Shown one piece after another: positions 711-33,954 of a stretch of 64,000 nt of DNA. The stretch comes from Paucimonas lemoignei (GTDB taxonomy: Bacteria; Pseudomonadota; Gammaproteobacteria; Pseudomonadales; Pseudomonadaceae), in contig LS483371.1 of assembly GCA_900475325.1 (NCBI GenBank), positions 4,464,001-4,528,000 on the forward strand, written 5' to 3'. The position numbers and the translations under genes are program-made. The notes beneath the pieces are model-generated. The model worked only from the letters and a program-made list of their open reading frames with translations, searched no databases and was not told where the DNA came from. Every line of letters starts with the position of its first letter. Position 1 is the first letter of the stretch.

Positions 711-1111
711 GTGTTTCTCCAGGTGGCGACCCTCGCAAAGGGCCTACCGGATGTTGGGAATTCGATAGAAATGCGCCGGGGGTGTGGCGTGGGGGCGGAT
801 TCTAGCAAAAATGGGGGGTGGGGATAAGTCGTGTATTTTCTGGATTGGTCTGTGTGTATATCCATTGCTGCGGTAACGGCTGCTTATGGTTGCGCCCTTA
901 CGGCGCCTCACTTTTGAAGCCCAAAAGTAAGCAAAAGGCTCTTGCCCCACCACTCGGCACCTCGCCTAGGCTCGGTGTACCCGACCGCAGACCTTGAACC
1001 GTGGGCCGCCGCGAAGGGCCATCCCTGGCCCAGCGCGGCTAACCCGGCGTCCTGCCGGGTTGCCCACGGTTCAAGGCCCGCGTTCGGCCAGCGTGGTTTG
1101 ACGGGGCGCCA

Positions 1112-1160
1112 AGATCAAAAGCAAAAGCAAAAGCAGATCAAGATCAAGATCAAGATCAAG
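1112..1160. repeat. Short tandem repeat in element A core
   Basis: Units of AAAAGC followed by AGATCA units. Unit number and composition differ in the equivalent places of the other two elements (29393-29427 and 33283-33330), so this is a variable-number repeat at the inner edge of the left arm. Confidence 0.75.
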
Positions 1161-1190
1161 GGCTGGATGGTTGGCGCTACGTGAATTGAG

Positions 1191-1250
1191 GTAGGAGCTG
1201 CCGAAGGCTGCGAAGGCGGCTACCGATTCGCAGCCTTCGGCAGCTCCTAC
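1191..1250. repeat. REPIN, GTAGGAGCTGCCGAAGGCTG family
   Basis: Inverted pair of REP sequences: GTAGGAGCTGCCGAAGGCTG, short spacer, then its reverse complement ending CAGCTCCTAC. It is close to a perfect palindrome and sits at the same internal position in all three compound elements. Confidence 0.9.
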
Positions 1251-1718
1251 AGAAATTTGCGCACACCACCGGTTCTGTGGGAGCGAATTCATTCGCGAAA
1301 GCATTGGAAAAAACAACGAAAACAGCGAGACAAGCACAAACAAAGAACAGGCCGGCTATCAGGCCGCCTCGCGCGCTTTTGATTTGGCTTTTGATCTTAG
1401 GCGCCCCGTCAAACCACGCTGGCCGTAAGCCGATATTGATTCGGCGGTGCAAACCGGCAGGACGCCGGTTTAGCCGCACTGGGCCAGGGATGGCCCTTTG
1501 CGGCGGCCCGCCGAATCAATGTCGGATTACGGGCATGCCGAGCACCAGCGAGGGACCGAGTGGTGGGGCACAGACCTTTTGGTTACTTTTGGCTGGGCCG
1601 GCATTCCGGGCGTTTGCCAAAAGTGACCCGCCGTAAGGGCGGAACCATAATCCCAGCACACATCAATAACGGATATGTACCCAAACCAAACCAAACCAAG
1701 TCAACACAAAACCGCCAA

Positions 1719-2012
1719 TCACTCCCCCCCAGCACAAGTCGGCGAAACCGGCGCAGCGCCAGTCTTCGCCCACTCAACCGGGGTATAGGTATGCAACGCC
1801 AGCGCGTGAAACTCACCCATCAAGCCCCCCAGAATGCCGTAGACCTTCTGGTGCCGCTTGACCGCATTGAGCCCCTCGAACTGATCACTCACCACCACAG
1901 CCTTGTAATGCGTCTGCTCCCCACGACTGTGCATATGACTCTCATCAAGCACCTGCAGATGCAGCGGTTGAAACACAGCCAGTGCTGACTCGATCCGGGT
2001 TTGCATCGTCAT
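1719..2012 (-). CDS. bolA: BolA family protein
   Basis: A 97-residue BolA-like protein. These small cytoplasmic proteins partner monothiol glutaredoxins in iron-sulfur or iron handling and affect cell shape under stress. Visible family features are the helix MQTRIESAL at the start, LxVxDESHMHSRG at about 20-30 (conserved histidine region), HYKAVVVSDQF and a C-terminal ALALHTYTPVEW. ATG codons occur at 2010-2012 and 2004-2006; the first is used here. It lies 15 bases downstream of the DUF2059 gene on the same strand, so the two are probably co-transcribed. The last 12 residues are a poorly conserved tail. Confidence 0.9.
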   Translation of the reverse strand: MTMQTRIESALAVFQPLHLQVLDESHMHSRGEQTHYKAVVVSDQFEGLNAVKRHQKVYGILGGLMGEFHALALHTYTPVEWAKTGAAPVSPTCAGGE

Positions 2013-2027
2013 GACGGGCTTCGCTTA

Positions 2028-2558
2028 TCAGGGCTTTTTGGCAGGAGCTGGCGCAGCCGCTTTCTTGGACGGATCCAATTCAGCGGTCATGTCGGCAAGC
2101 AGTTTGTTGACCACCGGCACGGCTGTTTCCAGCTTGCCCTGGGTCAGTTGCGCCGATTGCTGAGTCAGCTCAGGCATCTTGGTCAGGACTTTCTTGCCCA
2201 GCGGGGACTGGTAGAACGCAACCAGGTCCTTGAGCTCGCTTTCCGAGAAGTTGGCGGTGTAGAGCTTGACCATGTCAGGCTTGAGCTTGTTCCAGCCGAT
2301 GGACTGATCCAGCGCGGCGTTGGCTTTGGCCTGGTAGGTTTCCAGCAGAGCTTTTTTCGACTCCGGCGCTTTGGTTTCGGCGAAGCGCTGGGCAAACATC
2401 TGTTGTACTTGCATGTACACCGGGGTGCCCAGCTTGTCGGCGTGAGCCAGCTTTAGGAACGTTTCAGCGCTGGCATTGTGGCTGGCGGTATCGGCAAGAA
2501 CCTGGCCGCTGGCACATACCAGAACAGCCGCAGTACAGATGGCGCGAAGACGGGTCAT
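2028..2558 (-). CDS. DUF2059 domain protein, exported
   Basis: A 176-residue protein with a signal peptide (residues 1-22, ending VLA) that should place it in the periplasm. The body is helical and matches the DUF2059 family: LTxNFSESELKDLVAFYQSPLGKKVLxKMP-type sequence at about 103-130 (here YTANFSESELKDLVAFY). The tail is low complexity, rich in Ala, Pro and Lys (AAAPAPAKKP). No enzymatic motif is visible and the function of the family is not known to me. It is transcribed away from fumC and just upstream of bolA, an arrangement I recall from other Pseudomonas genomes. Confidence 0.85.
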   Translation of the reverse strand: MTRLRAICTAAVLVCASGQVLADTASHNASAETFLKLAHADKLGTPVYMQVQQMFAQRFAETKAPESKKALLETYQAKANAALDQSIGWNKLKPDMVKLYTANFSESELKDLVAFYQSPLGKKVLTKMPELTQQSAQLTQGKLETAVPVVNKLLADMTAELDPSKKAAAPAPAKKP

Positions 2559-2729
2559 CGAATTTCCTTTCTAGCAGGCGAGGCAGAACCCCAAGGCCGA
2601 CCATTCTGCGCTTAACTTTGCATTGGCCTCAACCCCTGACACGCCGAGCGGTTAAATCCGCTGATGGGGGAACCCTTCCCGGATGAAGGGGCCTAACATG
2701 CGCGTACAACCCTCAAAGGAGCAAGCCCA

Positions 2730-4124
2730 GTGAGCCGCACTGAAACCGACAGCCTTGGCCCGATCGAAGTCCCGGAAGACGCTTACTGGGGTGCCCAGAC
2801 ACAACGTTCACTGATCAATTTCGCCATTGGCGATCAGCGCATGCCCCTGCCTGTGCTGCACGCCCTGGCCCTGATCAAAAAGGCCGCCGCGCGAGTCAAC
2901 GACCGCAACGGCGACTTGCCTGCCGACATCGCCCGGCTGATCGAACAGTCGGCCAATGAAGTGCTCGCAGGCGATCATGATGCTCAGTTCCCGCTGGTGG
3001 TCTGGCAGACCGGCAGCGGCACCCAGAGCAACATGAACGTCAACGAAGTGATTGCCGGACGCGCCAATGAGCTGGCCGGTCAGGGCCGTGGTGGCAAGTC
3101 CCCCGTGCACCCCAACGATCACGTCAATCGCTCGCAAAGCTCCAACGACTGCTTCCCGACGGCGATGCACATCGCTGCGGCGCAGGCCGTCAAAGAGCAG
3201 CTGCTGCCTGCCATTGCTGAGCTGTCCACTGGCCTTGCCGAGCAATCGGCGCGGCACATGAAGCTGGTGAAAACCGGCCGCACCCACATGATGGACGCCA
3301 CGCCGATCACGTTCGGCCAGGAATTGTCGGGCTTTGTGGCGCAGCTGGATTACGCCGAAAAAGCCATCCGCGCCACCCTGCCCGCGGTCTACGAGCTGGC
3401 GCAAGGCGGTACGGCAGTGGGTACCGGATTGAATTCGCCCCACGGTTTCGCCGAAGCTGTTGCCGCTGAACTGGCGGCGTTGTCCGGGTTGCCGTTTGTC
3501 ACCGCGCCTAACAAGTTCGCCGCACTGGCGGGTCATGAGCCGCTGATGGCACTGTCCGGTGCGCTGAAAACCCTGGCCGGTACATTGATGAAAATCGCCA
3601 ATGACCTGCGCCTGCTGGGCTCCGGCCCGCGTGCCGGTCTGGCGGAAGTGAAGTTGCCCGCCAACGAGCCGGGGAGCTCGATCATGCCCGGCAAGGTCAA
3701 CCCGACTCAGTGCGAAGCGCTGTCGATGCTGGCGTGTCAGGTGATGGGCAACGACGTGACCATCGGTTTCGCCGCCAGCCAGGGGCACTTGCAGCTGAAC
3801 GTGTTCAAGCCGGTGATCATTCACAACCTGCTGGAATCGATCCGCTTGCTGGGCGACGGGTGCAGCAACTTCAACGAGCACTGCATCGCAGGCATGGAGC
3901 CCGATGCAGCCAAGATGGCGGAACACTTGGAGCGCGGCCTGATGCTGGTCACCGCGCTGAACCCGCACATCGGTTACGACAAATCCGCTCAGATCGCCAA
4001 GAAGGCTTACACCGAAGGCCTCACCCTGCGTGAAGCAGCGCTGGCCTTGGGCTACCTGACGGACGAGCAGTTCGACGCCTGGGTCAGACCGGAAAACATG
4101 CTTGAGGCGGGCAGCAATGGTTGA
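2730..4124 (+). CDS. fumC: Class II fumarate hydratase (fumarase C)
   Basis: A 464-residue iron-independent fumarase that interconverts fumarate and malate in the TCA cycle. It has all the landmarks of the aspartase/fumarase superfamily: [14 protein letters not shown] at about 94-107, HPNDHVN at about 127-133 and the signature [11 protein letters not shown] at about 315-325. The start is GTG at 2730, with AAAGGAG nine bases upstream. Length is normal. Its stop overlaps the start of the downstream oxidoreductase gene. Its neighbours (DUF2059, bolA) match the context of the second fumC of P. aeruginosa, so a further fumarase gene elsewhere in the chromosome is likely; that is inference. Confidence 0.96.
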
Positions 4125-4731
4125 TGCCAAGCATGGCGCGACACGGCTGGAAGGTGATGGCAAACGCATCCTGATGATCTTCGGCACGCCCAAAAGCGCC
4201 AGCCTCGGCCATGCCTTGGGTGAAGCTTATGCCCAAGGGGCACGGGGCGAAGGTCATGTGGTGCGCATGCTGAAACTGAGCGCGCTGGATTTCGACCCGG
4301 TGCTGCACAACGGCTATCAGCAAAGTCAGGTGCTGGAACATGACCTGCTTGAAGCCCAACGGGAAATCCATTGGGCCGAGCACTTGGTGCTGGTGTATCC
4401 GGTCTGGTGGGGCGGCTTGCCGAGCTTGCTCAGTGGTTTTCTGGACCGGGTACTGATGCCCGGTTTTGCCTTCAAGAGCCACGGCCGTAAAAGCCCGGCC
4501 AATGAATTGCTCAAGGGGCGTACGGCAGAGCTGCTGGTGACCATGGACACCCCGCCGCGCTACTTCCGCTGGGTTTATGGCGCTCCGGCGCATCGGCAAA
4601 TGATGCGCAACGTGTTGAGCTTTTGCGGTATCAAAACCAAGCGTCTCACCGAGTTTGCCCCGGTGCAGACTTCAACCGAGGAACAGCGTCAGCAGTGGCT
4701 CAGGCAAGCCGAGCAACTGGGCAAACGCTGA
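4117..4731 (+). CDS. NAD(P)H-dependent oxidoreductase, flavodoxin-like fold
   Basis: About 204 residues from the ATG at 4117, which overlaps the fumC stop by 8 bases and follows GAGGCGG. It looks like the NQO1/KefF/MdaB group of flavin quinone reductases: early [21 protein letters not shown] (phosphate-binding loop), then [19 protein letters not shown] at about 95-113, where these enzymes bind flavin, and a later [10 protein letters not shown] strand. It probably reduces quinones or related electrophiles in the cytoplasm; the substrate cannot be read from sequence. An upstream in-frame TTG (4102) is a less likely start. Translational coupling to fumC is probable. Confidence 0.85.
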
Positions 4732-4737
4732 TAGTCG

Positions 4738-5700
4738 TCAGATCTGCCCTGCCATCCTGGCCTTGCGAGCGCGCAGGCCAGCCAGCAACGACGGCCCGAG
4801 CGCCACGACGGCCGACCCCACCACCACCAGAATCGCCCCGCCATAACCCAACGCGTTGATCTCTTCGGCCTGGACGAAATCAGGCCACAGCCAGGCGGCG
4901 ATGGCCACGGTGGCGAACGTCACCAGTGGCGTCAGCGCCAGGGTTGCACTGACCCGCGACGCCTCCCAGTGGGCCAGCGCTTCGGCAAAGGCGCCGTAGG
5001 CCACCAGCGTGTTGAGGCAACAGGCCAGCAGCAACCAACCCTGTAGCGAACTGACCTGCAACACCTCCATTGGGTGCGCCCAGGGTGTGATCACCAAGGC
5101 ACAGAACAGGTAGATCACCATCATCACCTGGAAGGAATTCCACACGGTCAACAACTGCTTCTGGCTCAGGCCATAAAACGTCCAGACCGTCGCTGCCATG
5201 AAAACAATCAGCACGCCGGTGGTGTATTCGCTCATGGAAGTCAGCAGTTCTTCCAGGCGCTGGTTGAAGAACAGCCCGAAACCCACCAGCAGCACCAGCA
5301 GACCAAAACCCTGGGCGAGGGTGAAGCGCTCCTTGAACAGAAAGACGCTGCCCGCCAGCAACAGGATCGGCCCCACCTGAATGATCAGTTGCGCGGTGCC
5401 GGGGCTGAGAATCTTCAGGCCGATCAGGTACAGGATGTAATTGCCCACCAGGCCCAGCACGGCCAGCACCACCAGGCCTTTGCCCTTGTTGCCCAGCTGT
5501 TTGAAGCTGGGCAGTTGCCGCTTGTAGGCCAGCCACATGAACAGCAGCGAGCCTGACACCATCAGCCTGCACCAGGTGACCGTGACCGGGTCCATGACCT
5601 GCAATACCTGCTTGAGCTTGACGGGCAGGATGCCCCAGAGAAACGCAGTAACCAGTGCGAGACACAGGCCATACAGCCAGCGGCCAGAAGAAACGTGCAT
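4738..5700 (-). CDS. EamA/DMT family transporter
   Basis: A 320-residue inner-membrane protein of the drug/metabolite transporter superfamily, with two EamA repeats and about ten hydrophobic helices (the first is LYGLCLALVTAFLWGILPV). The ATG at 5698-5700 is chosen over a TTG nine codons upstream. Substrate is unknown; relatives export amino acids or metabolites. It is convergent with the oxidoreductase gene, six bases away, and no terminator hairpin was seen between them. Confidence 0.85.
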   Translation of the reverse strand: MHVSSGRWLYGLCLALVTAFLWGILPVKLKQVLQVMDPVTVTWCRLMVSGSLLFMWLAYKRQLPSFKQLGNKGKGLVVLAVLGLVGNYILYLIGLKILSPGTAQLIIQVGPILLLAGSVFLFKERFTLAQGFGLLVLLVGFGLFFNQRLEELLTSMSEYTTGVLIVFMAATVWTFYGLSQKQLLTVWNSFQVMMVIYLFCALVITPWAHPMEVLQVSSLQGWLLLACCLNTLVAYGAFAEALAHWEASRVSATLALTPLVTFATVAIAAWLWPDFVQAEEINALGYGGAILVVVGSAVVALGPSLLAGLRARKARMAGQI

Positions 5701-5803
5701 GGGAAATCCCCGGGGCAGGTGAAGCAAAAAAAGAGATCAAGTCTAGGCCTATGGGAGAGCCCGACATAGCTACAGCTGACGACGCAAAGTACTAGGAATT
5801 GTT

Positions 5804-6421
5804 TTAGTCAGCCTGCCTGGTGAGCGGTTCAACGTGATTGCGCTGGTAAGTATCGCTGCCCATAGCCTCGATCTGCTGGTCTATGAGCGCTTCGAACGGC
5901 GTCAATAACGGCACGAACGACTTAGGCGCCTCCAGAATCTGCAAGGCATGGGTAATGGCCTCCAGCGTCGACAAGGCATCCGGCCCCGGCGCCTTGCGCA
6001 AGCGATAGCGCGAAGGCGGTACGTCGCCCAGTGTCACCCGTGGCAACGCCGCCAGCAGCGGATTGAGATGCAACATCTTGCGCGCCTTGCGCCAAGTGCC
6101 GTCGGGCACCACCAACAGCGTCGGCAGCGTGTCCGCCTGATCGACCACCAACTGCTGCGCGCCCTCCCCTGGAAACAACAACCGCGGTTGATAGCCGGGG
6201 GGATGCAGCACCGCTTGCAGGTCTTCAAACACTTCGCCCACCAGCAACTGCGCATTGCGCAGCCCCAGCGCCGCCAGCCGCCCGGTGTTCAATGCATGGC
6301 TGACCTCGCCAGGATGCTGCAAGACCAGCACCCGGGTGCGGCTGTCGAGCTGCGGGATCAGCGCACACAGGCAGTGGCTCTGCGGTCGCAGGCAACGTTC
6401 ACAACGGGCTCTTTTGCTCAT
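5804..6421 (-). CDS. tapT: tRNA-uridine aminocarboxypropyltransferase (DTW domain, TapT-like)
   Basis: A 205-residue DTW-domain protein. The family moves the aminocarboxypropyl group of S-adenosylmethionine to uridine-47 of tRNA. The N-terminal cysteine cluster CERCLRPQSHCLC (about 7-19) should bind a metal, LQHPGE follows at 34-39, and the defining motif is present as DGTW at about 107-110. It starts at an ATG preceded by GGAGG, nine bases after the gbuR stop on the same strand, so it may be read through from that gene. Family is secure; the specific target base is inferred from E. coli TapT (YfiP). Confidence 0.88.
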   Translation of the reverse strand: MSKRARCERCLRPQSHCLCALIPQLDSRTRVLVLQHPGEVSHALNTGRLAALGLRNAQLLVGEVFEDLQAVLHPPGYQPRLLFPGEGAQQLVVDQADTLPTLLVVPDGTWRKARKMLHLNPLLAALPRVTLGDVPPSRYRLRKAPGPDALSTLEAITHALQILEAPKSFVPLLTPFEALIDQQIEAMGSDTYQRNHVEPLTRQAD

Positions 6422-6430
6422 CTGGCCTCC

Positions 6431-7324
6431 TCATGCGGGGTTCAACTGCGCTTTGAGCAAATCGCGGAAGGTCTGGATCAGCGGCTCGCGGCTTCGGCCT
6501 CGCCGGACGATCATGGAGAACGGTGCCTGATAGCCAAAGGTGGCGGGCAGCAACACGCGCAAGTGCCCGGAGTCGGCCCAGGACTGGGCGTAGTGTTCGG
6601 GCAAATAACCAATGTACGCGCCGGACAGCACCAGGATCAGCTGGGCCTCCATGCTTTCCACGGTCGCCGCGCTGTGCTTGAAACCGTGGCGAGCCAATTC
6701 CGCCTGGCTCCAGTAACCCCGGCCGACCATCCGTTGCTGGGCGATCACTGGCTCGGGAATGCGCCGCTCGGCGAACAGCGCATGGCGATTGCTGCAATAC
6801 AGCCAGTGTTGCTCGCGATACAGAGGCTGATAGAGCAAGCCGTTCATGCGGGTGGAAAACGAGCCGATGGCCAGATCGAGGCGGTTATCCAGCACGCCCA
6901 ACTGCAATTCATAAGGGCTCATCACCGACAGGTGAATGTGCACCGCTGGATGCTCTGCGCTGTAGGCGCCAATGACTTCGGCCAACGGCAGTGCCCGGTC
7001 ACTGACCGTCGAATCCAGGACACCCAGGTTCAGGGTGCCGCGCAGTTCGCCTTTGAGCGCTGCGGCGTACAGCTCGAAACCTTCCAGCTCGCCCAGCAGG
7101 CGCAGGGTTTCCTGATGAAACAGCTCACCCTTGCTGGTCAGGCTGAACCCGCCGCGCCCGCGATGGCACAGCACAATGCCCAACGCGGCTTCAAGCTGGC
7201 TCATATAGGTGCTGATGGCCGAGGTGGACAGGTTCAGTTCCTGTTGCGCGCTGGCAAAGCCCTGATGGCGCACCACACTGGCAAAAATCCGCAGCAGTTT
7301 CAGATCGGGTAAGGCGTTGGGCAT
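6431..7324 (-). CDS. gbuR: LysR family regulator, probable GbuR
   Basis: A 297-residue LysR-type transcription factor: an N-terminal winged helix-turn-helix (LPDLKLLRIFASVVRHQGFASAQQ, then LNLSTSAISTYMSQLE at about 30-45) and a C-terminal effector-binding domain. It is divergent from the guanidinobutyrase gene, the same arrangement as gbuR/gbuA of P. aeruginosa, so it most likely activates gbuA in response to 4-guanidinobutyrate. The 276-base intergenic region would hold its operator but is interrupted by a REPIN. Confidence 0.82.
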   Translation of the reverse strand: MPNALPDLKLLRIFASVVRHQGFASAQQELNLSTSAISTYMSQLEAALGIVLCHRGRGGFSLTSKGELFHQETLRLLGELEGFELYAAALKGELRGTLNLGVLDSTVSDRALPLAEVIGAYSAEHPAVHIHLSVMSPYELQLGVLDNRLDLAIGSFSTRMNGLLYQPLYREQHWLYCSNRHALFAERRIPEPVIAQQRMVGRGYWSQAELARHGFKHSAATVESMEAQLILVLSGAYIGYLPEHYAQSWADSGHLRVLLPATFGYQAPFSMIVRRGRSREPLIQTFRDLLKAQLNPA

Positions 7325-7356
7325 GGGGAGGTCCAGTGGAATAAAAGATATTCATT

Positions 7357-7445
7357 GTGGGAGCGAGCTTGCTCGCGAAGAGGCCGGCACAATCACCGCC
7401 TTTCTGAAACCTCAACGCCGCCTTCGCAATCAAGCTTGCTCCCAC
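7357..7445. repeat. REPIN, GTGGGAGCGAGCTTGCTCGCGAA type
   Basis: Inverted REP pair (GTGGGAGCGAGCTTGCTCGCGAA ... AAGCTTGCTCCCAC). It lies in the intergenic region shared by gbuR and gbuA, nearer gbuR. Confidence 0.85.
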
Positions 7446-7600
7446 AGAGAAGCAGTTTCCCCAACATCAAGCGGGCGGAATAATAGCCCAAAACCCCTTT
7501 AGTTCTGAAATTCCTGAACTAAGTATTTCGCCTCAGCGATTGTTCCAACCGATCCGGTTTCGCAGAATCCCCTCATTGAAACCACTGCTGAGGCAATCCC

Positions 7601-8551
7601 GTGGAAAAGATTTTTCACCAACCACTGGGCGGCAACGAAATGCCGCGCTTCGCCGGTATCGCCACCATGATGCGTCTGCCGCACCTGCAGAGCGCTGCGG
7701 GTCTGGATGCTGCTTTCGTCGGCGTGCCGCTGGACATCGGTACGTCACTGCGTGCCGGAACCCGTTTCGGGCCACGGGAAATCCGCGCCGAATCAGTGAT
7801 GATCCGCCCTTACAACATGGCCACTGGCGCCGCGCCCTTTGACTCGCTGTCGGTCGCCGACATCGGTGATGTGGCGATCAACACCTTCAACTTGCTGGAC
7901 GCGGTGCGCATTATCGAAGAAGCCTACGACGAGATCGTCAGCCACAACGTGATTCCACTCACTCTGGGTGGCGATCACACCATCACCCTGCCGATCCTGC
8001 GCGCCCTGCATAAAAAACACGGCAAGATCGGCCTGGTTCACATCGATGCCCACGCCGACGTCAACGACCACATGTTTGGCGAGAAAATCGCCCACGGCAC
8101 CACCTTCCGCCGCGCCGTGGAAGAAGGCCTGCTCGATTGTGATCGCGTGGTCCAGATCGGGTTGCGCGCCCAAGGCTATACCGCCGAAGACTTCAACTGG
8201 AGCCGCAAACAGGGTTTTCGCGTGGTGCAGGCCGAAGAGTGCTGGCACAAATCCCTGGCGCCACTGATGGCTGAGGTTCGCGAGAAAGTCGCCGGTGGCC
8301 CGGTTTACCTGAGTTTCGACATCGACGGTATCGACCCGGCCTGGGCGCCCGGTACTGGCACCCCGGAAATCGGCGGACTGACCACCATCCAGGGCATCGA
8401 AATCATTCGTGGCTGTCAGGGACTGGATCTGATCGGCTGTGACCTGGTGGAGGTGTCGCCTCCTTATGACACCACGGGCAACACGTCTCTGCTGGGGGCC
8501 AACCTGCTTTACGAAATGCTGTGCGTGCTGCCGGGCGTAACGCACCGCTGA
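7601..8551 (+). CDS. gbuA: Guanidinobutyrase (arginase/agmatinase family)
   Basis: A 316-residue ureohydrolase that probably cleaves 4-guanidinobutyrate to 4-aminobutyrate and urea in arginine catabolism. The manganese-binding motifs are intact: GGDH at 123-126, DAHAD at 149-153 and SFDIDGIDP at about 238-246. The whole sequence, including NMATGAAPFDSLSVADIGD, agrees with my memory of P. aeruginosa GbuA rather than agmatinase SpeA or guanidinopropionase GpuA. The start is GTG at 7601 with GAGG upstream. The divergent LysR gene supports the call. Agmatinase is the main alternative. Confidence 0.87.
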   Translation: MEKIFHQPLGGNEMPRFAGIATMMRLPHLQSAAGLDAAFVGVPLDIGTSLRAGTRFGPREIRAESVMIRPYNMATGAAPFDSLSVADIGDVAINTFNLLDAVRIIEEAYDEIVSHNVIPLTLGGDHTITLPILRALHKKHGKIGLVHIDAHADVNDHMFGEKIAHGTTFRRAVEEGLLDCDRVVQIGLRAQGYTAEDFNWSRKQGFRVVQAEECWHKSLAPLMAEVREKVAGGPVYLSFDIDGIDPAWAPGTGTPEIGGLTTIQGIEIIRGCQGLDLIGCDLVEVSPPYDTTGNTSLLGANLLYEMLCVLPGVTHR

Positions 8552-8573
8552 TGATTCAACGGCGCGAGCCAGT

Positions 8574-8604
8574 AAAAAGGGTGCCTTCGGGCACCCTTTT
8601 TTAT
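8574..8604 (+). terminator. Rho-independent terminator of gbuA
   Basis: Stem AAAGGGTGCC, loop TTCG, stem GGCACCCTTT, then a run of T, starting 23 bases after the gbuA stop. A UUCG tetraloop on a 10-base-pair stem is a strong terminator. Confidence 0.93.
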
Positions 8605-8797
8605 TTCGCACACCACAGGTTAGCCCTCAGGGTTTGAGCTAGCCTTAATCGGTGCAGGAGCATTGAACAGTCGAATCAGCAGAGTGCAGGCCGCGTTTCA
8701 TCTATCGATCTCACGCGTGTTCACTCGTATGGAAACACCCTCTGTTGTATGGAAGTTAGGGCTGATCCTCTAAACATCTGCATCACAGGGAGCTTTC

Positions 8798-9055: not shown

Positions 9056-9061
9056 CGCACG

Positions 9062-9103: not shown

Positions 9104-9129
9104 GAGCTGACCGGGCCGACACGTTGCTA

Positions 9130-10540: not shown

Positions 10541-10553
10541 ATCGGATGACAGC

Positions 10554-25413: not shown

Positions 25414-26705
25414 GGTTTGAAAAGCGCCGCAACCGCCTGAGGATTGGAAGGGAAATAGAAGTGCACGTATGACGCTGTCAGACGCCCGTCGCGATAGACC
25501 GCCTCCGCGCCACGCCCGCCGTTGGGGCTCAGGCCGCGCGCGATAGGCTGCAGCTCAGTGCTGGTCAGCGAATGGTGATAGGTGTGGCCGCGCAACTCGC
25601 CTTCGGGCAAGGCGACGGTTTGTAACGCCAGGGCGGCCAGGCGCTTCTGCATCACCGCTTCGCCGTTCAGCAGGCCGACCAGTTCGGCACGCTCGCCCTC
25701 GACATCGGTCAAGGCATCTAGCAGATACAACATGCCGCCGCATTCGGCGAGCAACGGTTTGCCAGCCTGGTGGTGGCCGCGAATCGCTGCCAGCATCGGC
25801 GCGTTCTGGCTCAAGGCGACGTGGTGCAATTCCGGGTAGCCGCCCGGCAGATAGAGGCTGTCTGCATCCGGCAAAGCGCTGTCGCGGATCGGTGAGAAGA
25901 ACGACAACTCTGCGCCCATGGCCCGCAGCAGGTCCAGGCTCGCGCCGTAGGTAAACGCGAAGGCTTCGTCATGGGCGATGGCGATGCGCACACCTTCAAG
26001 CAAAGGCTCGGCAGGGATAATCTGCGGCGCGGCAAAGGTCACTGCAGGCGGCAACGCCACTTCGCACGTGCTGGCCAACGCCTCGGCGGCAGCGTCCAGA
26101 CGCAGGTCCAGGTCATTGAGCTCACTGGCCTGAACCAGACCGAGGTGACGGCTGGGCAGCTCGATCCCGGTTTCCCGGGACAGCGCGCCATACCAGCGCA
26201 GACCTTCGGTGAGGCTGCCTTCGAGCAGTTGCGCATGACGCACAGTGCCGACCCGGTTTGCCAATACACCGGCAAACGGCAAATCCGGCTGATAGCGCGC
26301 CAGCCCCAGCGCCAAAGCGCCAAAAGTCTGGGCCATGGCGGTGCCGTCGATCACACCCAGCACCGGAACGCCAAAATGGCGGGCAAGATCGGCGCTGGAC
26401 GGCGTGCCGTCGAACAGGCCCATCACCCCTTCAATCAGAATCAGGTCGGCCTCGCCTGCGGCTTCCCACAACAGGCGGCGGCTTTCATCGGCGCCGACCA
26501 TCCATAAATCCAGCTGATAGACCGGCGCACCGCTGGCCCGCTCAAGAATCATCGGGTCAAGAAAATCGGGGCCGCATTTGAACACCCGAACCTTGCGGCC
26601 CTGGTTGCGATGCAGGCGAGCCAGCGCTGCCGTGACAGTGGTTTTACCCTGGCCCGAGGCGGGCGCGGCGATCAATACCGCCGGGCAGTGACGCGGCTCG
26701 CTCAT
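25410..26705 (-). CDS. cobB: Cobyrinic acid a,c-diamide synthase
   Basis: A 431-residue amidotransferase (CobB of aerobic B12 makers, CbiA family) that amidates the a and c side chains. The N-terminal P-loop APASGQGKTTVTAALAR at about 14-30 and LMVGADESRRLLWEAAGEADLILIEGVMGLFDG follow the family pattern. The C-terminal glutaminase domain has PGGYPELH at about 276-283 and the nucleophile in LAECGGMLYL at about 318-327. It lies 10 bases after cobO and overlaps bluB. Not to be confused with the sirtuin CobB. Confidence 0.95.
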   Translation of the reverse strand: MSEPRHCPAVLIAAPASGQGKTTVTAALARLHRNQGRKVRVFKCGPDFLDPMILERASGAPVYQLDLWMVGADESRRLLWEAAGEADLILIEGVMGLFDGTPSSADLARHFGVPVLGVIDGTAMAQTFGALALGLARYQPDLPFAGVLANRVGTVRHAQLLEGSLTEGLRWYGALSRETGIELPSRHLGLVQASELNDLDLRLDAAAEALASTCEVALPPAVTFAAPQIIPAEPLLEGVRIAIAHDEAFAFTYGASLDLLRAMGAELSFFSPIRDSALPDADSLYLPGGYPELHHVALSQNAPMLAAIRGHHQAGKPLLAECGGMLYLLDALTDVEGERAELVGLLNGEAVMQKRLAALALQTVALPEGELRGHTYHHSLTSTELQPIARGLSPNGGRGAEAVYRDGRLTASYVHFYFPSNPQAVAALFKP

Positions 26706-26715
26706 GAACGATCAC

Positions 26716-27327
26716 TCACAGCTCGATGCCTTTTTGCGCACGGATGCCCGCCTGGAAGGCGTGCTTGACCACAGTGATTTCAGAAACGGTGTCGGCCATG
26801 TCGATCATTTCCGGCTTGGCGCCGCGCCCGGTGACGATCACGTGCTGCATCGGCGGACGGGCCTGCAAATCGGCGAGCACCCGCTCGATGTCCAGATAAC
26901 CGTGCTTGAGGGCGATATTCAGCTCATCGAGCACGACCATGCCGATGGCCGGATCACGAAGCATTTCCAGGGATACTTCCCAGGCGGCTTCGGCGGCGGC
27001 GATATCACGCTGGCGGTCCTGGGTTTCCCAGGTATAGCCCTCGCCCATCACGTGGTAACGCACCTGCTCGGGGAAACGCCGGAAAAAGAATTCTTCGCCG
27101 GTGCTGTTGCTGCCCTTGATGAACTGCACCACACCGCACTGCATGCCGTGGCCCATGGCCCGAGCGAGCATGCCAAAGGCGGAGCTGCTCTTGCCTTTGC
27201 CATTGCCGGTCAGCACCAGCAACAAGCCGCACTCATTGGGAGCGCTGGCGATACGTTCGTCCATTACGGCTTTTTTGCGCAGCATACGCGCCAGGTGGCG
27301 CTCGTCGCGTTCGGGGGATTCGTTCAT
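26716..27327 (-). CDS. cobO: Cob(I)yrinic acid a,c-diamide adenosyltransferase
   Basis: A 203-residue corrinoid adenosyltransferase of the CobA/CobO/BtuR type that attaches the upper adenosyl ligand. The P-loop GNGKGKSSSAFGMLARA at about 43-59 is the family's unusual ATP-binding loop, followed by QFIKGSNSTGEE and later LDELNIALKHGYLD at about 133-146 and VIVTGRGAKPEMIDMAD near 168. The ATG at 27325-27327 follows GGAGAGC and is preferred to an upstream in-frame codon at 27387. First gene of the riboswitch-headed cob run. Confidence 0.95.
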   Translation of the reverse strand: MNESPERDERHLARMLRKKAVMDERIASAPNECGLLLVLTGNGKGKSSSAFGMLARAMGHGMQCGVVQFIKGSNSTGEEFFFRRFPEQVRYHVMGEGYTWETQDRQRDIAAAEAAWEVSLEMLRDPAIGMVVLDELNIALKHGYLDIERVLADLQARPPMQHVIVTGRGAKPEMIDMADTVSEITVVKHAFQAGIRAQKGIEL

Positions 27328-27431
27328 CTCAGCTCTCCGCTTGAGGGCACGCGAAAGCAGACGGCAGGCGGCAGCACTGGCTGGCAACGCCGCCAGGTCA
27401 TGCGCAGAGCATCGCCCGCCGTGATGCTATT

Positions 27432-27625
27432 GGATGGATCAGGCCGGTCTCCGGGCTCATGAGCGGGCGTACCCGACTGCGCGCCTTCCCATGCTCAAGC
27501 ACAGTGGCCAGATTGCGCAGTTTTCACTCATTTACCGTTGCGGGGGCAGCGCCGGAATACGTCGCGAACGGCGACGGCACCGGCTTCCCTGTTTCACTTG
27601 AGCAGTCCGCAGACTTCAAGCACCT
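27432..27625 (-). promoter_or_regulatory. Cobalamin riboswitch
   Basis: Reading the minus strand, the conserved B12 riboswitch blocks occur in order: AAACAGGGAAGCCGGTG, then GCGCTGCCCCCGCAACGGTAA, GCCACTG, GGGAAGGCGCGCAGTCGG and finally the B12-box-like GCCCGGAGACCGGCCTG (about 27441-27457). It lies about 105 bases upstream of the cobO start, so it should repress the cob run when adenosylcobalamin is plentiful. A GCATC/GATGC hairpin between it and cobO may be part of the expression platform. Confidence 0.95.
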
Positions 27626-27744
27626 GAAACAAGGGGCGAAGGGTAGAGGGTTGGGGGTGGAGCGTCAATCAACACAGGGGTTGAACCTCCCCCGCATGGG
27701 CGTCTCTATCTCTTATTGCACCCTGCCCGTTACGGAGATCGACC

Positions 27745-29067
27745 ATGTTCACGCTCAAACCGCAATACGCTGTGTTGCTCGTGCTTGCTGCTGGCCTGGC
27801 GGGCTGTGGCGAGTCCTCCAGATTGCAAGTCATGGACGGCACCGGACCGTCGCCCCAACTGCCTGAGCCGAATAAAACCTTGATCCCGACCGTGAACATC
27901 GCTCCGGCGGTCGGCTGGCCTAAAGACGCCAAGCCGATTGCCGCCCCTGGTACTCAGGTTGCTGCCTTCGCCGAGAATCTGGATCACCCGCGCTGGCTGT
28001 ACGTACTGCCCAATGGCGACGTGCTGGTAGCGGAAACCAACTCGCCGCCCAAGCCCGATGATGACCAGGGCGTGCGTGGCTGGGTCATGAAGAAAATCAT
28101 GGGCCGTGCCGGTGCCGGTGTGCCCAGCCCTAACCGCATCACCCTGCTGCGCGACAAAGACCACGACGGCGTGGCCGAAACCCACACCGTATTCCTGGCA
28201 AACCTCAACTCCCCCTTCGGCATGACATTGGTGGGCAATAAGCTCTATGTGGCCGATACCGACCGCCTGATCAGCTTCCCTTATCAGGACGGCCAGACCT
28301 CCATCAGCGCCGCGCCCACCAAGGTCGTCGACCTGCCAGGCGGCACGCTGAACCACCACTGGACCAAAAACGTCATCGCCAGCAAAGACGGCAGCAAGCT
28401 GTACGTGACGGTGGGCTCCAACAGCAACGTGGCGGAAAACGGCATGGCGGCCGAAGAAGGTCGCGCGGCCATCTGGGAAGTCGATGCCGCCACCGGTGCG
28501 CACCGCATCTTCGCCTCAGGCCTGCGCAACCCTAACGGCATGGACTGGGAACCCACCACCGGCAAGCTGTGGACAGCGGTGAACGAGCGCGACGAAATCG
28601 GCAGCGATCTGGTGCCGGACTATGTCACCTCGGTGAAGGACGGCGGCTTCTATGGCTGGCCTTACAGCTATTACGGTCAGCACGTGGATGTACGGGTCAA
28701 ACCACAGAACCCGGAACTGGTCGCCAAGGCGATTGCACCTGACTTCGCGGTCGGGCCACATACCGCTTCACTTGGCCTGGTCTTCGCCGATGGCAAAACC
28801 CTGCCCGCGCCATTCAACGAAGGGTTGTTCATCGGCCAGCACGGCTCATGGAACCGCAAACCCCACAGCGGTTATAAGGTGCTGTTCGTGCCCTTCAGCG
28901 GCGGCAAGCCTAGCGGTGCGCCTATCGACCTGCTCACTGGCTTCCTGAATTCCGATGAGAAAGCTCAGGGCCGGCCGGTGGGGGTGGTCAATGATCATCA
29001 GGGCGGGTTGTTGGTGGCCGATGATGTGGGGAACAAGGTTTGGCGGGTGACGGGGGTGAAGCGTTGA
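27745..29067 (+). CDS. Lipoprotein of the sorbosone/glucose dehydrogenase (PQQ-type beta-propeller) family
   Basis: A 440-residue secreted lipoprotein: signal and lipobox LAAGLAGC with the acylated cysteine at 22, then a six-bladed beta-propeller of the soluble sugar dehydrogenase (GdhB/YliI/sorbosone dehydrogenase) type. Seen: [20 protein letters not shown] at about 74-93, [20 protein letters not shown] near 153-172, [15 protein letters not shown] near 253, [14 protein letters not shown] near 299 and [18 protein letters not shown] near 356-373. It probably oxidises sugars in the periplasm using PQQ; substrate unknown. ATG follows CGGAGA. It diverges from the cob riboswitch, but nothing suggests shared control. 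Confidence 0.88.
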
Positions 29068-29392
29068 ATTGGGGGACTGTAATTAAGCCGAGTCGCTCAT
29101 ATCGCGGCATGGGTATACACGTTTTTTCGCGTACATATCCGTTGTAGCGGTAACGGCTACTTAGGGTTGCGCCCTTACGGCGCCTCACTTTTGAAGCCCA
29201 AAAGTAAGCAAAAGGCTCTTGCCCCACCACTCGGTCCCTCGCCTAGGCTCGGCATGCCCGTAATCCTACATTGATTCGGCGGGCCGCCGCGAAGGGCCAT
29301 CCCTGGCCCAGCGCGGCTAAACTGGCATCCATGCCGGTTCACCCGCCGAATCAATATCGGCTTCCGGCCAGCGTGGTTTGACGGGGCGCCAG

Positions 29393-29427
29393 GATCAAAA
29401 GCAGATCAAAAGCACATCAAGATCAAG
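29393..29427. repeat. Short tandem repeat in element B core
   Basis: GATCAAAAGCA and GATCAA units; shorter than the equivalent tracts in copies A and C. Confidence 0.7.
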
Positions 29428-29459
29428 GGCGGCGATGGTTGGCGCTGCGTGGATTAGTG

Positions 29460-29519
29460 GTAGGAGCTGCCGAAGGCTGCGAAGGCGGCTACCGATTCGC
29501 AGCCTTCGGCAGCTCCTAC
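29460..29519. repeat. REPIN, GTAGGAGCTGCCGAAGGCTG family, inside element B
   Basis: Same palindrome as at 1191-1250, with the same GGCGGCTACCGA spacer, at the same internal site. Confidence 0.9.
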
Positions 29520-29933
29520 AGAGAATTGCACACGCCGTTGATTCCGTGGGAGCGAATTCATTCGCGAAGACAATGGTGCAAACAACGAATAACGCGAGAC
29601 AAACACACAAAAAAAGCAGGTCGGCTATCAGGCCGCCTCGTGAGCTTTTGATCTTAGGCGCCCCGTTAAACCACGCTGGCCGGAATCCGATGTTGATTCG
29701 CAGGGGAAACCGGCAGGACGCCGGTTTAGCCGCACTGGGCCAGGGATGGCCCTTTGCGGCGACCCTGCGAATCAATGTCGGATTACGGGCATGCCGAGCC
29801 TTAGCGAGGGACCGAGTGGTGGGGCAAGAGCGCTTTGGTTACTTTCGCGCTTTTCGAAAGTGACCCGCCGTAAGGGCGGAACCCTAAGTAGCCGTTACCC
29901 CAGGAATGGATATGTACCCAATCAAAAGAATCG

Positions 29934-30473
29934 CTACTGATTCCGCGCCAGATTCGAAGGCTGAATCACCCGCTTCGCATTCAAATAAGCCCTCTGCCAA
30001 TAAGGCTTGTCGAGGCTGTCCAGCTTGACCGTGCCGCCGGTGGCGGGCGCATGCACGAAGCGGCCTTCGCCGACATAGATCCCGGCATGGCTGACCTGTG
30101 AACCACCGCCCGTGGCGAAGAACACCAGATCACCCGACTGCAACTGCTCGCGCCCGATATTGGGCGCGCGCATCACAATCATGTCCCGGGTCGAACGTGG
30201 CAAGGCAATGCCCGCCGCGTCGCGATAGACAAAGCCAATCAAACCACTGCAATCAAAACCCGAATCAGGCGTGTTACCGCCCCACCGATAAGGCGTGCCC
30301 ACAAGACCCAAGGCGCGGAACAACACGTCTTCCGCGGCAGGGTTGGGGTTTTCGGTAGGAGCGACGAGCACCGGGCGTTGAACAACCCGAGGCTGGGGCG
30401 GTGGCGGCGCGCTGGCGCAAGCACCCAGCAACGCTGCAAGAGAAATAACCGCTAGGCGAACCATAATCGACAT
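29934..30473 (-). CDS. NlpC/P60 cell-wall peptidase, lipoprotein
   Basis: A 179-residue lipoprotein with lipobox LAALLGAC near residue 20 and a C40 (NlpC/P60) peptidase domain, which cuts peptide cross-bridges in peptidoglycan. Seen: GTPYRWGGNTPDSGFDCSGLIGFVY with the catalytic cysteine near 77, and VSHAGIYVGEGRFVHAP with the catalytic histidine near 130. ATGs at 30471-30473 and 30464 are possible; the first has a weak AGG upstream. A second C40 gene follows upstream at 30565, so the two may be tandem paralogues with distinct roles. Confidence 0.9.
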   Translation of the reverse strand: MSIMVRLAVISLAALLGACASAPPPPQPRVVQRPVLVAPTENPNPAAEDVLFRALGLVGTPYRWGGNTPDSGFDCSGLIGFVYRDAAGIALPRSTRDMIVMRAPNIGREQLQSGDLVFFATGGGSQVSHAGIYVGEGRFVHAPATGGTVKLDSLDKPYWQRAYLNAKRVIQPSNLARNQ

Positions 30474-30564
30474 AAACGACAACCTGACGTGGATGCGGCT
30501 TACTTTGCCGGGGGCCCGGAAAGCACAAGACAGGCTTATAGCCTGTCTTTATGCAACACGGTAG

Positions 30565-31266
30565 TTATTTGTGCTTACGCTTCTTGACCGCTGGGGTCTT
30601 GATCGTCGTTGCCGTCATCGCAGTGGTCTGCGGGGCCGCTACTGTAGGCGACTCCATGGCCAGCGCGCGCTTGGCTTCGATGAAGGTCTTGCTCCAGTAA
30701 GTGTCGTCAAGGCTGTCGACGCGAACGCCACCGCTACGACGGCTGCTGGAGTGGATGAATTGATTGTCACCCAGGTAGATAGCAGCGTGGCTGACGCGAC
30801 CGCGACCGGCAGTGCTGAAGAACAGCAGATCGCCTGGCTCAAGATCAGTGCGTTTCACCAGAGGCGCATCGATGTTGATCATTTCACGGGAAGAACGCGG
30901 CAGGTTCATGCCGGCCTCTTCCTTGAACAGATAACCGATGAAGCCGCTGCAATCAAAACCGGACTTGGTAGAGGTGCCGCCAAAACGGTAACGCGTACCG
31001 ATCAGGGCTTTGCCACGCTCAAGAATGCTGTCTGCCAAAACGGGTAGCTGATAAGGCTTGCTGTCGGCAAACTGAGCCAGCTCGGCTTCAGTGGCCAGCT
31101 CTTCCTGCAATACCGACCGGTCTGAGCGGATGGCAGAGGTAGGAGCGGAAATGGAAGCCTTGTGCGCCTGTTGTTGGGTGTTTTGGGAAACCGGCATATT
31201 GGCCGAGCAACCGAACAACAGGGTGACGAGTGCGAGGGGCACGAGGGGTGCGAAGCGAACTAGCAT
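30565..31266 (-). CDS. NlpC/P60 cell-wall peptidase, lipoprotein with basic tail
   Basis: A 233-residue lipoprotein: lipobox LVTLLFGC near 20, a linker rich in Ala, Ser and Gln to about 75, a C40 peptidase domain (GTRYRFGGTSTKSGFDCSGFIGYLF with the catalytic Cys; VSHAAIYLGDNQFIHSSS with the catalytic His) and a Thr/Ala-rich tail ending in KKRKHK. It is paralogous to the gene at 29934 but has a longer N-terminus and a basic C-terminus that could bind the cell wall or DNA. ATG at 31264-31266 is used. Confidence 0.9.
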   Translation of the reverse strand: MLVRFAPLVPLALVTLLFGCSANMPVSQNTQQQAHKASISAPTSAIRSDRSVLQEELATEAELAQFADSKPYQLPVLADSILERGKALIGTRYRFGGTSTKSGFDCSGFIGYLFKEEAGMNLPRSSREMINIDAPLVKRTDLEPGDLLFFSTAGRGRVSHAAIYLGDNQFIHSSSRRSGGVRVDSLDDTYWSKTFIEAKRALAMESPTVAAPQTTAMTATTIKTPAVKKRKHK

Positions 31267-31341
31267 GGGCACGACCGTGGCTGGAATATTAAGAAGCCGC
31301 GACTATGCCTTCTATCTTTCTCATTTGCAAATTCAATCGAA

Positions 31342-32106
31342 CTAAATGTGACTTACCAACTCCCCCATGACATGTACCGCTCGGCAGGGAAAAAAGGCGT
31401 CAATTTGATCGCTGAGATTTTTTGACGCCAAATTTATTTCAGCGATAAAACCACCGCAAACCCTTGTTCTGAATACAGGTTCCTGGATGTAAGGGAAGCT
31501 TGCCGTGGTGCCGATACTCAGTACCGCATCAAAGCCTTTTGCCATCTCTTCATAGAGGGTTTCGAGGGCACGCCCGGGCAACATTTCCTGAAACAACACG
31601 ACAGATGGTCGCATAACGCCACTACAGAGCGAGCAAATCGGTGGAAGCGGACCATTCAGGCGGGCACTGACGTTGGAATCTTCGGCCGCACACGACTGAC
31701 AATAAAGCGGCCCGAGCTGACCATGAATCTCGATCAACCGGTCTGGCGGGCTGCCCGCCGCGCGGTGGTAGCCATCAACGTTTTGCGTGAGCACCCAGCA
31801 CTCCGGCTTCTTGCGCTGCAGCTCGGCGATTGCGTAATGAGCAGCGTTGGGCTGCGCGCCAAGACAGGCTTTGGCGAGCTGCGCGATGTACTTCCAGCAC
31901 AACTCGGGATCACGACGCAGCATCGGGCCGGACATGGCCATTTCAATCGACACGCCGTCTTCGGTTTCTGCGTTATAGAGGCCACCCACCCCGCGATACG
32001 TCGGCAGGCCGGAATCGGCCGACAGCCCTGCCCCGGTGATGACCAGAATCCGTTGCGCGTGCCGCAATGCCGCTGCGGTTTGCAACAACAGGGCTTGGTC
32101 TACCAC
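31342..32106 (-). CDS. Sir2 family NAD-dependent protein deacylase
   Basis: A 254-residue sirtuin. NAD-binding GAGLSADSGLPTYRG lies at about 25-39, TQNVDGYHRAAG at about 107-118, the catalytic histidine in EIHGQLGPLYC at about 126-136, and four zinc cysteines (CQSC and CSLC) flank a short insert. The start is GTG at 32104-32106, which overlaps the hda stop by 7 bases, so it is probably translated from the hda message. Targets are unknown. The location after hda suggests, but does not show, a link between NAD-dependent deacylation and replication control. Confidence 0.9.
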   Translation of the reverse strand: MVDQALLLQTAAALRHAQRILVITGAGLSADSGLPTYRGVGGLYNAETEDGVSIEMAMSGPMLRRDPELCWKYIAQLAKACLGAQPNAAHYAIAELQRKKPECWVLTQNVDGYHRAAGSPPDRLIEIHGQLGPLYCQSCAAEDSNVSARLNGPLPPICSLCSGVMRPSVVLFQEMLPGRALETLYEEMAKGFDAVLSIGTTASFPYIQEPVFRTRVCGGFIAEINLASKNLSDQIDAFFPCRAVHVMGELVSHI

Positions 32107-32804
32107 CCAAGCGTCTCTTTAAGGAAAGGGATAGTCAGTTTGCGTTGCGCTTGAAGCGATGCCTGATCCAGGGTTTCCAGCAGATCAAACAGCGCACTCA
32201 TGCTGCGCGTGCCCCGGGTGAGGATGAAATGGCCGACTTCGTCGGTCAGGTGCAGGCCGCGACGCGATGCACGCAGCTGCAAGGCACGCAGCTTGTCTTC
32301 ATCGGACAGGCCCCGCATCTGGAACACCAGCGCCATGGTCAGACGAGATTTGAGATCGGGGAGTTTGACCGGCAGCTCTCGCGGAGACTGAGAGGCTGCG
32401 ATCAGCAAACGACGACCACTGTCACGCAGCCGGTTGAACAGATGGAACAGCGCTTCTTCCCACTCGGGTTTGCCGACGATGGCCTGTAAATCGTCAAGAC
32501 AGACCAGCTCGTACTGCTCCAGGTTGTCGAACAGCTCGACCCCTTCATCAATGACTTCGGCGAGCGGCAGATAAACAGCCGGTTCGCCGATCTGCTCGAA
32601 ACGCAGGCACGCGGCCTGCAGCAGGTGAGTGCGCCCTACTCCGTCCTTGCCCCACAAATAGATGAGGCTTTCGGTCCAGCCAGCCTCGGCTTCGCACAGC
32701 CGCTCCACGTAGCCGAGTGCAGCGGCGTTGGCGCCGGGATAGTAGTTGATGAAGGTGGCGTCATCACGCAGACGCACACCCAGGGGCAGCTGAATAGGTT
32801 TCAT
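32100..32804 (-). CDS. hda: DnaA regulatory inactivator Hda
   Basis: A 234-residue DnaA-related AAA+ protein that, bound to the DNA-loaded sliding clamp, stimulates hydrolysis of ATP by DnaA to block re-initiation. The N-terminal MKPIQLPLGV carries the clamp-binding motif QLPLGV. A Walker A-like GKDGVGRTHLLQA is at about 51-63, Walker B is LVCLDDLQAI near 97-106 and a sensor region follows (LKSRLTMALVF near 152). ATG at 32802-32804; longer upstream in-frame sequence is not coding. Followed by the overlapping sirtuin gene. Confidence 0.93.
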   Translation of the reverse strand: MKPIQLPLGVRLRDDATFINYYPGANAAALGYVERLCEAEAGWTESLIYLWGKDGVGRTHLLQAACLRFEQIGEPAVYLPLAEVIDEGVELFDNLEQYELVCLDDLQAIVGKPEWEEALFHLFNRLRDSGRRLLIAASQSPRELPVKLPDLKSRLTMALVFQMRGLSDEDKLRALQLRASRRGLHLTDEVGHFILTRGTRSMSALFDLLETLDQASLQAQRKLTIPFLKETLGW

Positions 32805-33282
32805 GCTGGCTGAACGGCTCAAGCGAACCGTTAGGGGCCTCTGTGTAAAGTGCGCAAAGTTTATACCCGTGACGCTGGGGGAGCAATGAGCCAGACCATA
32901 AGCAAAATCAAAGGTTTGCGTGAATTGGGAGCAATGGCGGAACACGCTGGCTGTGGGAGCGTGGCTTGCCCGCGATAAGCATAGGTATCCATACATCTTT
33001 CAAGAATTGGTTTTTGTACATATCCATTCCTGCGGTCACGGCCACTTAGGGTTCCGCTCTTACAGCGGGTCACCTTTTACAAACGCCTAAAAGGTAACCC
33101 AAAACGCTTGCCCCACCACTCGGTCCCTCGCCTAGGCTCGGCATGCCCGTAATCCGACATTGAGGTGTGGGGCCGCCGCCAACGGCCATCCATGGCCTAG
33201 GGCGGCTAAACCGGCATCCCTGCCGGTTTACCCCACACCTCAACATCGGACTCCGGCCAGCGTGGTTTAACGGGGCGCTTTA

Positions 33283-33330
33283 GATCAAAAGCCAGATCAA
33301 AAGCCAGATCAAAAGCCAGATCAAGATCAA
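33283..33330. repeat. Short tandem repeat in element C core
   Basis: Four near-identical GATCAAAAGCCA units running into AGATCAAGATCAA. Confidence 0.75.
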
Positions 33331-33362
33331 CTGCGGCGATGGATGGCGCTACTTGAATTGAG

Positions 33363-33422
33363 GTAGGAGCTGCCGAAGGCTGCGAAGGCGGCTACCGATT
33401 CGCAGCCTTCGGCAGCTCCTAC
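33363..33422. repeat. REPIN, GTAGGAGCTGCCGAAGGCTG family, inside element C
   Basis: Identical layout and spacer to the REPINs at 1191 and 29460. Confidence 0.9.
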
Positions 33423-33954
33423 AGAGAATTGCGCACCCCGTTGATTCCGTGGGAGCGAATTCATTCGCGAAGGGAATGGCACAAACAACGAATAACGTGA
33501 GCCAAGCACACAAAAAAAACAGGTCGGCTATCAGGCCGCCTCGCGCGCTTTTGATTTTGATCTTAGGCGCCCCGTTAAACCACGCTGGCCGACCGCAGGG
33601 CTTGAACCGTGGGCAACCCGGCAGGACGCCGGGTTAGCCGCGCTGGGCCAGGGATGGCCCTTCGCGGCGGCCCACGGTTCAAGGCCTGCGGGCGGGCACA
33701 CCGAGCCTAGGCGAGGTGCCGAGTGGTGGGGCAAGAGCGTTTTGCTTACTTTTGCGCTTTCAAAAGTGAGGCGCTGTAAGAGCGCAACCCTAAGTCGCCA
33801 TAACCGCAGCAACGGATATGTACTCAAAAAATGTGTAGAGATCATTGCCGCGCTAACGCTTGATGCGATTGACCTGATATTTGCGGCTCCTGCATCGCGT
33901 GCAAGCACCGTTCCCACATCAGATTGCATTCAAGTCCGGCTATATTCTGCGCCC

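Follow-up and report, generated by a model that had tools for sequence, protein, structure and literature searches.

The closest described relative of the elements studied here is TwoAYGGAY (Rfam RF01731), listed in a 2010 paper describing it as probably an RNA, from the human gut, Gammaproteobacteria and Clostridiales (PMC2864571), and proposed in 2014 to be a CsrA-binding RNA (PMC4333381). Rfam gives its type as Cis-reg and places it in the same clan, CL00106, as PrrB/RsmZ; in the open-access literature searched, we found no tested function for it and no prior description of the compound element reported below. The binding consensus of CsrA/RsmA is given as A(N)GGA (PMC4066749) and as 5'-RUACARGGAUGU-3' in hairpin loops (PMC7937890), and the sponge small RNAs (sRNAs) RsmX/RsmY/RsmZ and CsrB/CsrC present A(N)GGA in such loops. 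We analysed a stretch of 64,000 nucleotides from Paucimonas lemoignei (contig LS483371.1, positions 4,464,001 to 4,528,000), called the window throughout, and found in it three long compound palindromes, each carrying two TwoAYGGAY-like arms. While the family is known in outline, its dispersed, high-copy compound form in Pseudomonas, with Rsm-type loops, is, as far as the open-access literature searched can tell, new. We consider it reasonably likely that this dispersed chromosomal repeat yields an Rsm-docking RNA and that its copy number buffers or titrates Rsm proteins.

Read directly from the letters, each of the three elements consists of two inverted halves with outward-facing arms, the arms being inverted relative to each other; the ends carry motifs resembling GTACATATCC...GGATATGTAC, and the middle holds an inverted pair resembling repetitive extragenic palindromic (REP) sequences. 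The observation of covarying compound palindromes, made in a first-pass annotation of the same DNA, is real. The features are the following, where L and R mark the left and right arms and the scores in bits are those of the RF01731 model.

854-1680, no strand: compound element 1, two inverted halves with outward arms; terminal motif TATATCC / GGATATGTAC
976-1086, minus: arm 1L, three-way-junction RNA domain; 42.4 bits, below the cut-off
1048-1054 and 1020-1027, minus: loops of arm 1L, CAGGACG and CAGGGATG
1191-1250, no strand: REP-like inverted pair of element 1
1424-1537, plus: arm 1R; 48.8 bits
1458-1464 and 1485-1492, plus: loops of arm 1R, CAGGACG and CAGGGATG
29131-29917, no strand: compound element 2, tail-tail between two convergent genes
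29171-29181, minus: hairpin H6 of half 2L (GTAAG loop), core; shows covariation in relatives
29253-29366, minus: arm 2L; 46.1 bits
29326-29333 and 29298-29305, minus: loops of arm 2L, CATGGATG and CAGGGATG
29460-29519, no strand: REP-like inverted pair of element 2
29681-29793, plus: arm 2R; 49.0 bits
29714-29720 and 29741-29748, plus: loops of arm 2R, CAGGACG and CAGGGATG
29867-29877, plus: core of the GTAAG-loop hairpin H6, half 2R
33016-33823, no strand: compound element 3
33142-33255, minus: arm 3L; 47.3 bits
33215-33222 and 33187-33194, minus: loops of arm 3L, CAGGGATG and CATGGATG
33363-33422, no strand: REP-like inverted pair of element 3
33590-33700, plus: arm 3R; 40.7 bits, below the cut-off
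33622-33628 and 33649-33656, plus: loops of arm 3R, CAGGACG and CAGGGATG

The RF01731 covariance model aligns to all six arms over model positions 1 to 168, four of them scoring above the gathering cut-off of 43 bits and arms 1L and 3R just under it; the earlier statement that no named Pseudomonas RNA family fits is thereby overturned. The six long stems quoted in the first-pass annotation do pair perfectly at the coordinates given there (15/15, 13/13, 13/13, 13/13, 13/13 and 14/14 positions), but they are parts of something other than a plain stem: each arm folds into a three-way junction in which a long closing stem, P1, encloses hairpins P3 and P2. Model alignments, the six folds and covariation agree on two adjacent hairpins inside the closing stem, as in RF01731, and the order of parts is also that of the family: closing stem, GGA-loop hairpin, AG linker, second GGA hairpin, CGG, closing stem. 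The arms have folding z-scores of -6.2 to -10.6 on the outward strand, and for no arm was the native fold matched by any of 200 dinucleotide shuffles. It is this strand, minus for left arms and plus for right arms, that bears the GGA loops, and by predicted folding energy it is more stable than its antisense in six arms out of six (-88.8, -79.3, -67.4, -78.3, -81.0 and -89.4 kcal/mol versus, in the same order, -77.7, -72.1, -62.2, -69.4, -69.4 and -84.0 kcal/mol).

Each arm is designed around two C-A(N)GGA-Y-G hairpins, and all 12 loops in the window hold A(N)GGA, a pattern of at least two sites that we take as typical of Csr/Rsm binding. The window loops read AGGGAU (6/12), AGGAC (4/12) or AUGGAU (2/12), strict AYGGAY being the minority form there; the window arms may differ from TwoAYGGAY in this, and they do so in forming one domain of a larger RNA within a dispersed compound repeat and in falling below the cut-off in two cases of six. 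A survey of 51 arms of this genome, found by DNA similarity alone with no motif preselection and with the anchor present in 50, gave ANGGAU or AGGAC in 48 of 50 P3 loops (AGGAC 20, AUGGAU 12, AGGGAU 11, AAGGAU 5, other 2) and 49 of 50 P2 loops (AGGGAU 37, AUGGAU 12, other 1). In the wider arm set, CATGGATG is the commonest loop form (103 and 119 of 251), and RsmZ of this genome has C-AGGAU-G stretches as well. Two arm variants of another genome, G008 (L082:+1900 and L295), carry four CA(N)GGAYG motifs rather than two and give the impression that Rsm-type sites were added.

For the analysis of covariation, arms were collected as two CA(N)GGAYG motifs 14-42 nucleotides (nt) apart in loci fetched by similarity or by the P2 pattern, some of which overlap. 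This gave 289 places, of which 268 had at least four of six pairs beside each loop and were kept, a filter that biases P2 and P3, though not P1, towards pairing; the spacing from GGA to GGA is 25 nt in 249 of the 268 records. Six records were identical, and the 262 distinct arms were reduced to 130 below 93% identity (mean identity 56%), 64 of these arms coming from named loci of Pseudomonas, 29 from further genomes of the genus, 24 from other loci and 13 from this genome. The test was our own re-implementation of an R-scape-like null with 60 tree-simulated alignments, which resolves E-values down to about 0.02. Among 9,180 column pairs, 18 reached E<=0.05, and every one of them, like each of the 21 highest-ranking pairs, belongs to the nested pairing of P1, P2 or P3, all within the one three-way junction; eight of the 18 come from P1, which had played no part in the selection of sequences. 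The two sides of the stems do, as first noticed, change together: the changes are compensatory and independent, and the covariation exceeds the tree-aware null.

Covarying stems had been read as a sign of either a folded RNA or a cruciform, and the kinds of mismatch speak to that choice. A process acting on DNA only, be it quasi-palindrome correction, gene conversion or cruciform selection changing both sides of a stem, would give equal numbers of G-T and A-C mismatches everywhere. In the 130-arm alignment, however, the cells of P1 comprise 1,765 Watson–Crick pairs, 178 G-U, 44 A-C and 169 others, and the tree-inferred changes away from Watson–Crick number 81.5 to G-U and 21.2 to A-C. P3 points in the same direction (16 G-U versus 4 A-C), and 47 arms of this genome have 61 G-U cells versus one A-C at pairs whose commonest form is Watson–Crick. 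Given the equality expected from DNA alone, we take the excess in P1 and P3 as selection in RNA, and for the closing stem P1 such selection is well supported, on the strand that reads outward in each half. P2 speaks the other way, its asymmetry being absent or reversed (14 G-U versus 25 A-C, 12 of the 25 at the basal pair), and this, together with the long, near-perfect stems and the recurrence of a few stem types in the genome, is what an explanation at the DNA level has in its favor. The same explanation would not account for conserved loops in which A(N)GGA appears on a single strand, and we hold it to be very improbable. The asymmetry of P1 and P3, even if P2 lacks it, argues against a DNA cruciform or quasi-palindrome correction acting alone, and the RNA half of the earlier alternative is the one that finds support.

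The structure does not end with the arm. In 200 sequences, from an analysis of 211 arms with a TTCTTT/TACTTT motif in their downstream region, 13 column pairs downstream of the arm reached E<=0.05; seven lie in three further hairpins, one with a GTAAG loop, and the remaining six involve neighboring columns or the alternative pairing of one T-rich stretch. Since these covarying hairpins sit between the arm and the end of the element, the arm is a single domain within a more extensive structured RNA running towards the element end. Columns 60, 73 and 84 of the downstream alignment covary jointly, two T-rich strands being possible partners for one A-rich strand, which suggests alternative structures.

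The window elements belong to an abundant population. In this genome (5.92 Mb), BLAST finds 27 loci of what we call family A, 24 of them with two halves; the elements are 635-1,244 bp long, with halves of about 270 bp, and hold 48 complete arms. Family B, an asymmetric compound repeat of about 620-720 bp with the same two-arm design and different ends (e.g., L140:2915-3540), has at least 40 copies, 38 of them near full length and with 87-94% identity to the query copy; 38 of 40 lie within 0.99-4.04 Mb of the chromosome, and none of the listed copies is in the window. The genome thus contains at least 67 elements and, with the 48 family-A arms and about two per family-B element, as in the family-B majority sequence, probably over a hundred arms. 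The copy counts for both families and for the genus are lower bounds. Of 59 genomes sampled from the genus, our arm covariance model has matches in 36, with at least 63 each in this genome and in one other (G039); of the named loci listed, 79 of 80 are Pseudomonas, and successive arms in the fetched loci face outward (-,+) in 55 of 65 cases. RF01731 itself was found at E<=0.001 in 25 of 299 genomes of a phylum sample, 20 of them above the cut-off and 24 in the window's own class, with one weak exception outside it, and in 18 of 274 genomes of a class sample. Elsewhere in the class, its matches likewise form outward inverted pairs in some genomes; tandem direct copies occur instead at G938:C1:1379445-1380744, G938:C1:3660687-3662476 and G828:C2:1266-1836.

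From these observations, a mechanism can be proposed. The outward strand of each half would encode a structured RNA with a divergent three-way junction of the TwoAYGGAY type as its main domain, and the two hairpins, whose GGAs lie 25 nt apart, would suit the docking of one RsmA/RsmE (CsrA) homodimer per arm. As the halves are inverted, a transcript crossing an element from either side would carry exactly one sense arm; the 67 or more elements would then offer Rsm-docking sites, buffering or titrating Rsm through their copy number, and with probably more than a hundred arms, even modest read-through could titrate it. The fold, the RNA-level selection, the loops, the multi-copy organization and the absence from one orthologous site in relatives are carried by the sequence; transcription, Rsm binding in this strain, the occupancy of one dimer per arm and net titration are putative steps.

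A parallel comes from P. putida KT2440, where RNA immunoprecipitation sequencing placed RsmA, RsmE and RsmI both on intergenic regions adjoining copies of ISPpu8 and, downstream of PP_3547, on a "long palindromic region" (PMC7937890). ISPpu8 is an IS4-family element with six copies in KT2440 (PMC3056050), and the authors of the binding study interpret the bound regions as ISPpu8 insertion sites or remnants and leave them for further study (PMC7937890). The KT2440 region resembles ours in being a long intergenic palindrome, and it is bound in vivo by RsmA/RsmE/RsmI (PMC7937890); the Rsm-bound palindromes may well be relatives of the window element. Of 398 genomes, none matched a pattern made from the published rsmY primers with an assumed spacing. 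Genome G500 carries six identical DDE transposases; the arm model has no match at these six loci, and a motif scan hits a single place, without the arm architecture. Among thirty other DDE-transposase loci, three have motif matches: one chance-like (L288), one the four-hairpin variant already mentioned (L295) and one a part of the same variant (L302).

Several results, beside the reversed asymmetry of P2, weigh against Rsm docking with titration by copy number. The KT2440 palindromes are likened to ours by description only. A simple consensus scan of elements 2 and 3 detected no sigma-70-like promoter, and the GacA box, TGTAAG-N6-CTTACA, is absent from all three elements with up to two mismatches allowed, the pattern having three matches elsewhere in the window; nothing therefore points to an independent sRNA gene under Gac control. 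Unlike RsmX/Y/Z and CsrB/CsrC, the arms are multi-copy and dispersed, have two GGA hairpins, and show no GacA box, promoter or terminator; the GGA hairpins per arm number only two. In 23 of the 59 sampled genus genomes, the arm model has no match, and the element is therefore dispensable. CsrA is present in all 18 TwoAYGGAY-positive genomes of the class sample but also in 17 of 20 negative ones, which makes the co-occurrence weak evidence. Finally, 38 solitary arms are oriented indifferently to the flanking gene, nine in sense, 10 in antisense and 19 between two tails or heads.

This last result bears also on a different role, that of an element at the 3' ends of mRNAs that stabilizes or terminates neighboring transcripts, with Rsm binding secondary. 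A stop codon often lies about 20-100 bp from an element (gene calls for the context counts come from a simple codon model, and one right-hand neighbor, at L049, was miscalled), as such a role would have it. A 3'-untranslated-region element selected in the sense orientation nevertheless finds no support in the 9 versus 10 among the solitary arms, terminator-like sites are at chance level (one in each of elements 2 and 3, with 1.1-1.2 expected), and the conserved A(N)GGA loops would be left unexplained; we regard the 3'-end role as improbable. We give as little credence to the view that the loops bind another RNA-binding protein or belong to a cis-regulatory RNA of another kind: the Rfam type, Cis-reg, is in its favor, but the loops are of Rsm type, the clan is shared with RsmZ, and no gene family is consistently near the arms among the 30 largest clusters, named by eye, of the 1,796 open reading frames (ORFs) within 2.5 kb of arms.

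A more serious competitor to host buffering, plausible if on balance doubtful, is a selfish, non-autonomous mobile repeat resembling miniature inverted-repeat transposable elements or REPINs, in which Rsm docking would serve the element itself through transcript protection or the muting of read-through. The repeat is dispersed, expanded in this genome and has shared ends and internal REP-like pairs; it favors tail-tail gaps (11 of 27 loci versus 8 of 58 window gene pairs), and the Rsm-bound regions of KT2440 are tied to the IS4-family ISPpu8 in PMC7937890. Neither BLAST nor the arm model finds element 2 between its flanking genes in any of the 11 relatives in which both genes are kept, BLAST showing short REP pieces in one only; in the closest relative, whose upstream gene is 84% identical, the two genes stand 107 bp apart with a REP pair between them. 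Against mobility, no transposase among the 30 largest ORF clusters, judged by eye, is common to more than three arm loci, no target-site duplication was recognized by eye in the flanks of the 27 family-A loci and 20 family-B elements, and sequences like element 2 hardly occur on plasmids (1 of 72,556 records) or phages (2 of 50,697). In two other genomes, RF01731 pairs separated by 1.7 and 3.7 kb resembled transposon ends, but an autonomous transposon was rejected: at L138 there is a closer partner arm, and the intervening ORFs of both pairs are, by eye, ordinary genes. At L139, an IS3-like transposase (by eye) lies outside the arm pair.

Among known repeats, the REP/REPIN/BIME sequences and the R-family repeats of P. 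fluorescens (PMC2718517) are likewise dispersed, palindromic, intergenic and biased to tail-tail gaps, and the window elements contain a REP-like inverted pair, whereas family A differs in its length of 635-1,244 bp and its two large structured arms. R200, described as 320 bp long with 47 copies in SBW25 (PMC2718517), is a possible match to a half-element, by description only. A few neighbors deserve a mention. A transposase-like ORF, IS481-like by eye, is close to arms in L057, L165 and L183 (minimum distance in its cluster 99 bp, median 134 bp). A DUF6124 gene (PF19619, E 2.7e-30), which received no name from NCBIfam, lies between two arms at L070:1952-2308, and similar ORFs occur near arms in L071, L151, L160, L206 and L256. 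The window also holds a cobalamin riboswitch at 27425-27642 on the minus strand (101 bits).

Should the elements indeed yield Rsm-docking RNA, a wider picture can be drawn, though we think it unlikely and offer it tentatively: a self-spreading repeat turned into a distributed Rsm/Csr sponge, whose arm number, from none detected to probably more than a hundred per genome, would set the Gac/Rsm buffering of each Pseudomonas lineage, and whose inverted pairing would give docking RNA whichever way it is transcribed. Independently of this picture, TwoAYGGAY here supplies the apparent working part of a repeat that is abundant in tractable, well-studied bacteria with an intensively studied Rsm system, and this makes the prediction of CsrA binding directly testable. 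The elements also suggest how the palindromes bound by Rsm in P. putida KT2440 might be explained, and they raise the possibility that the copy number of a repeat tunes a global regulator.

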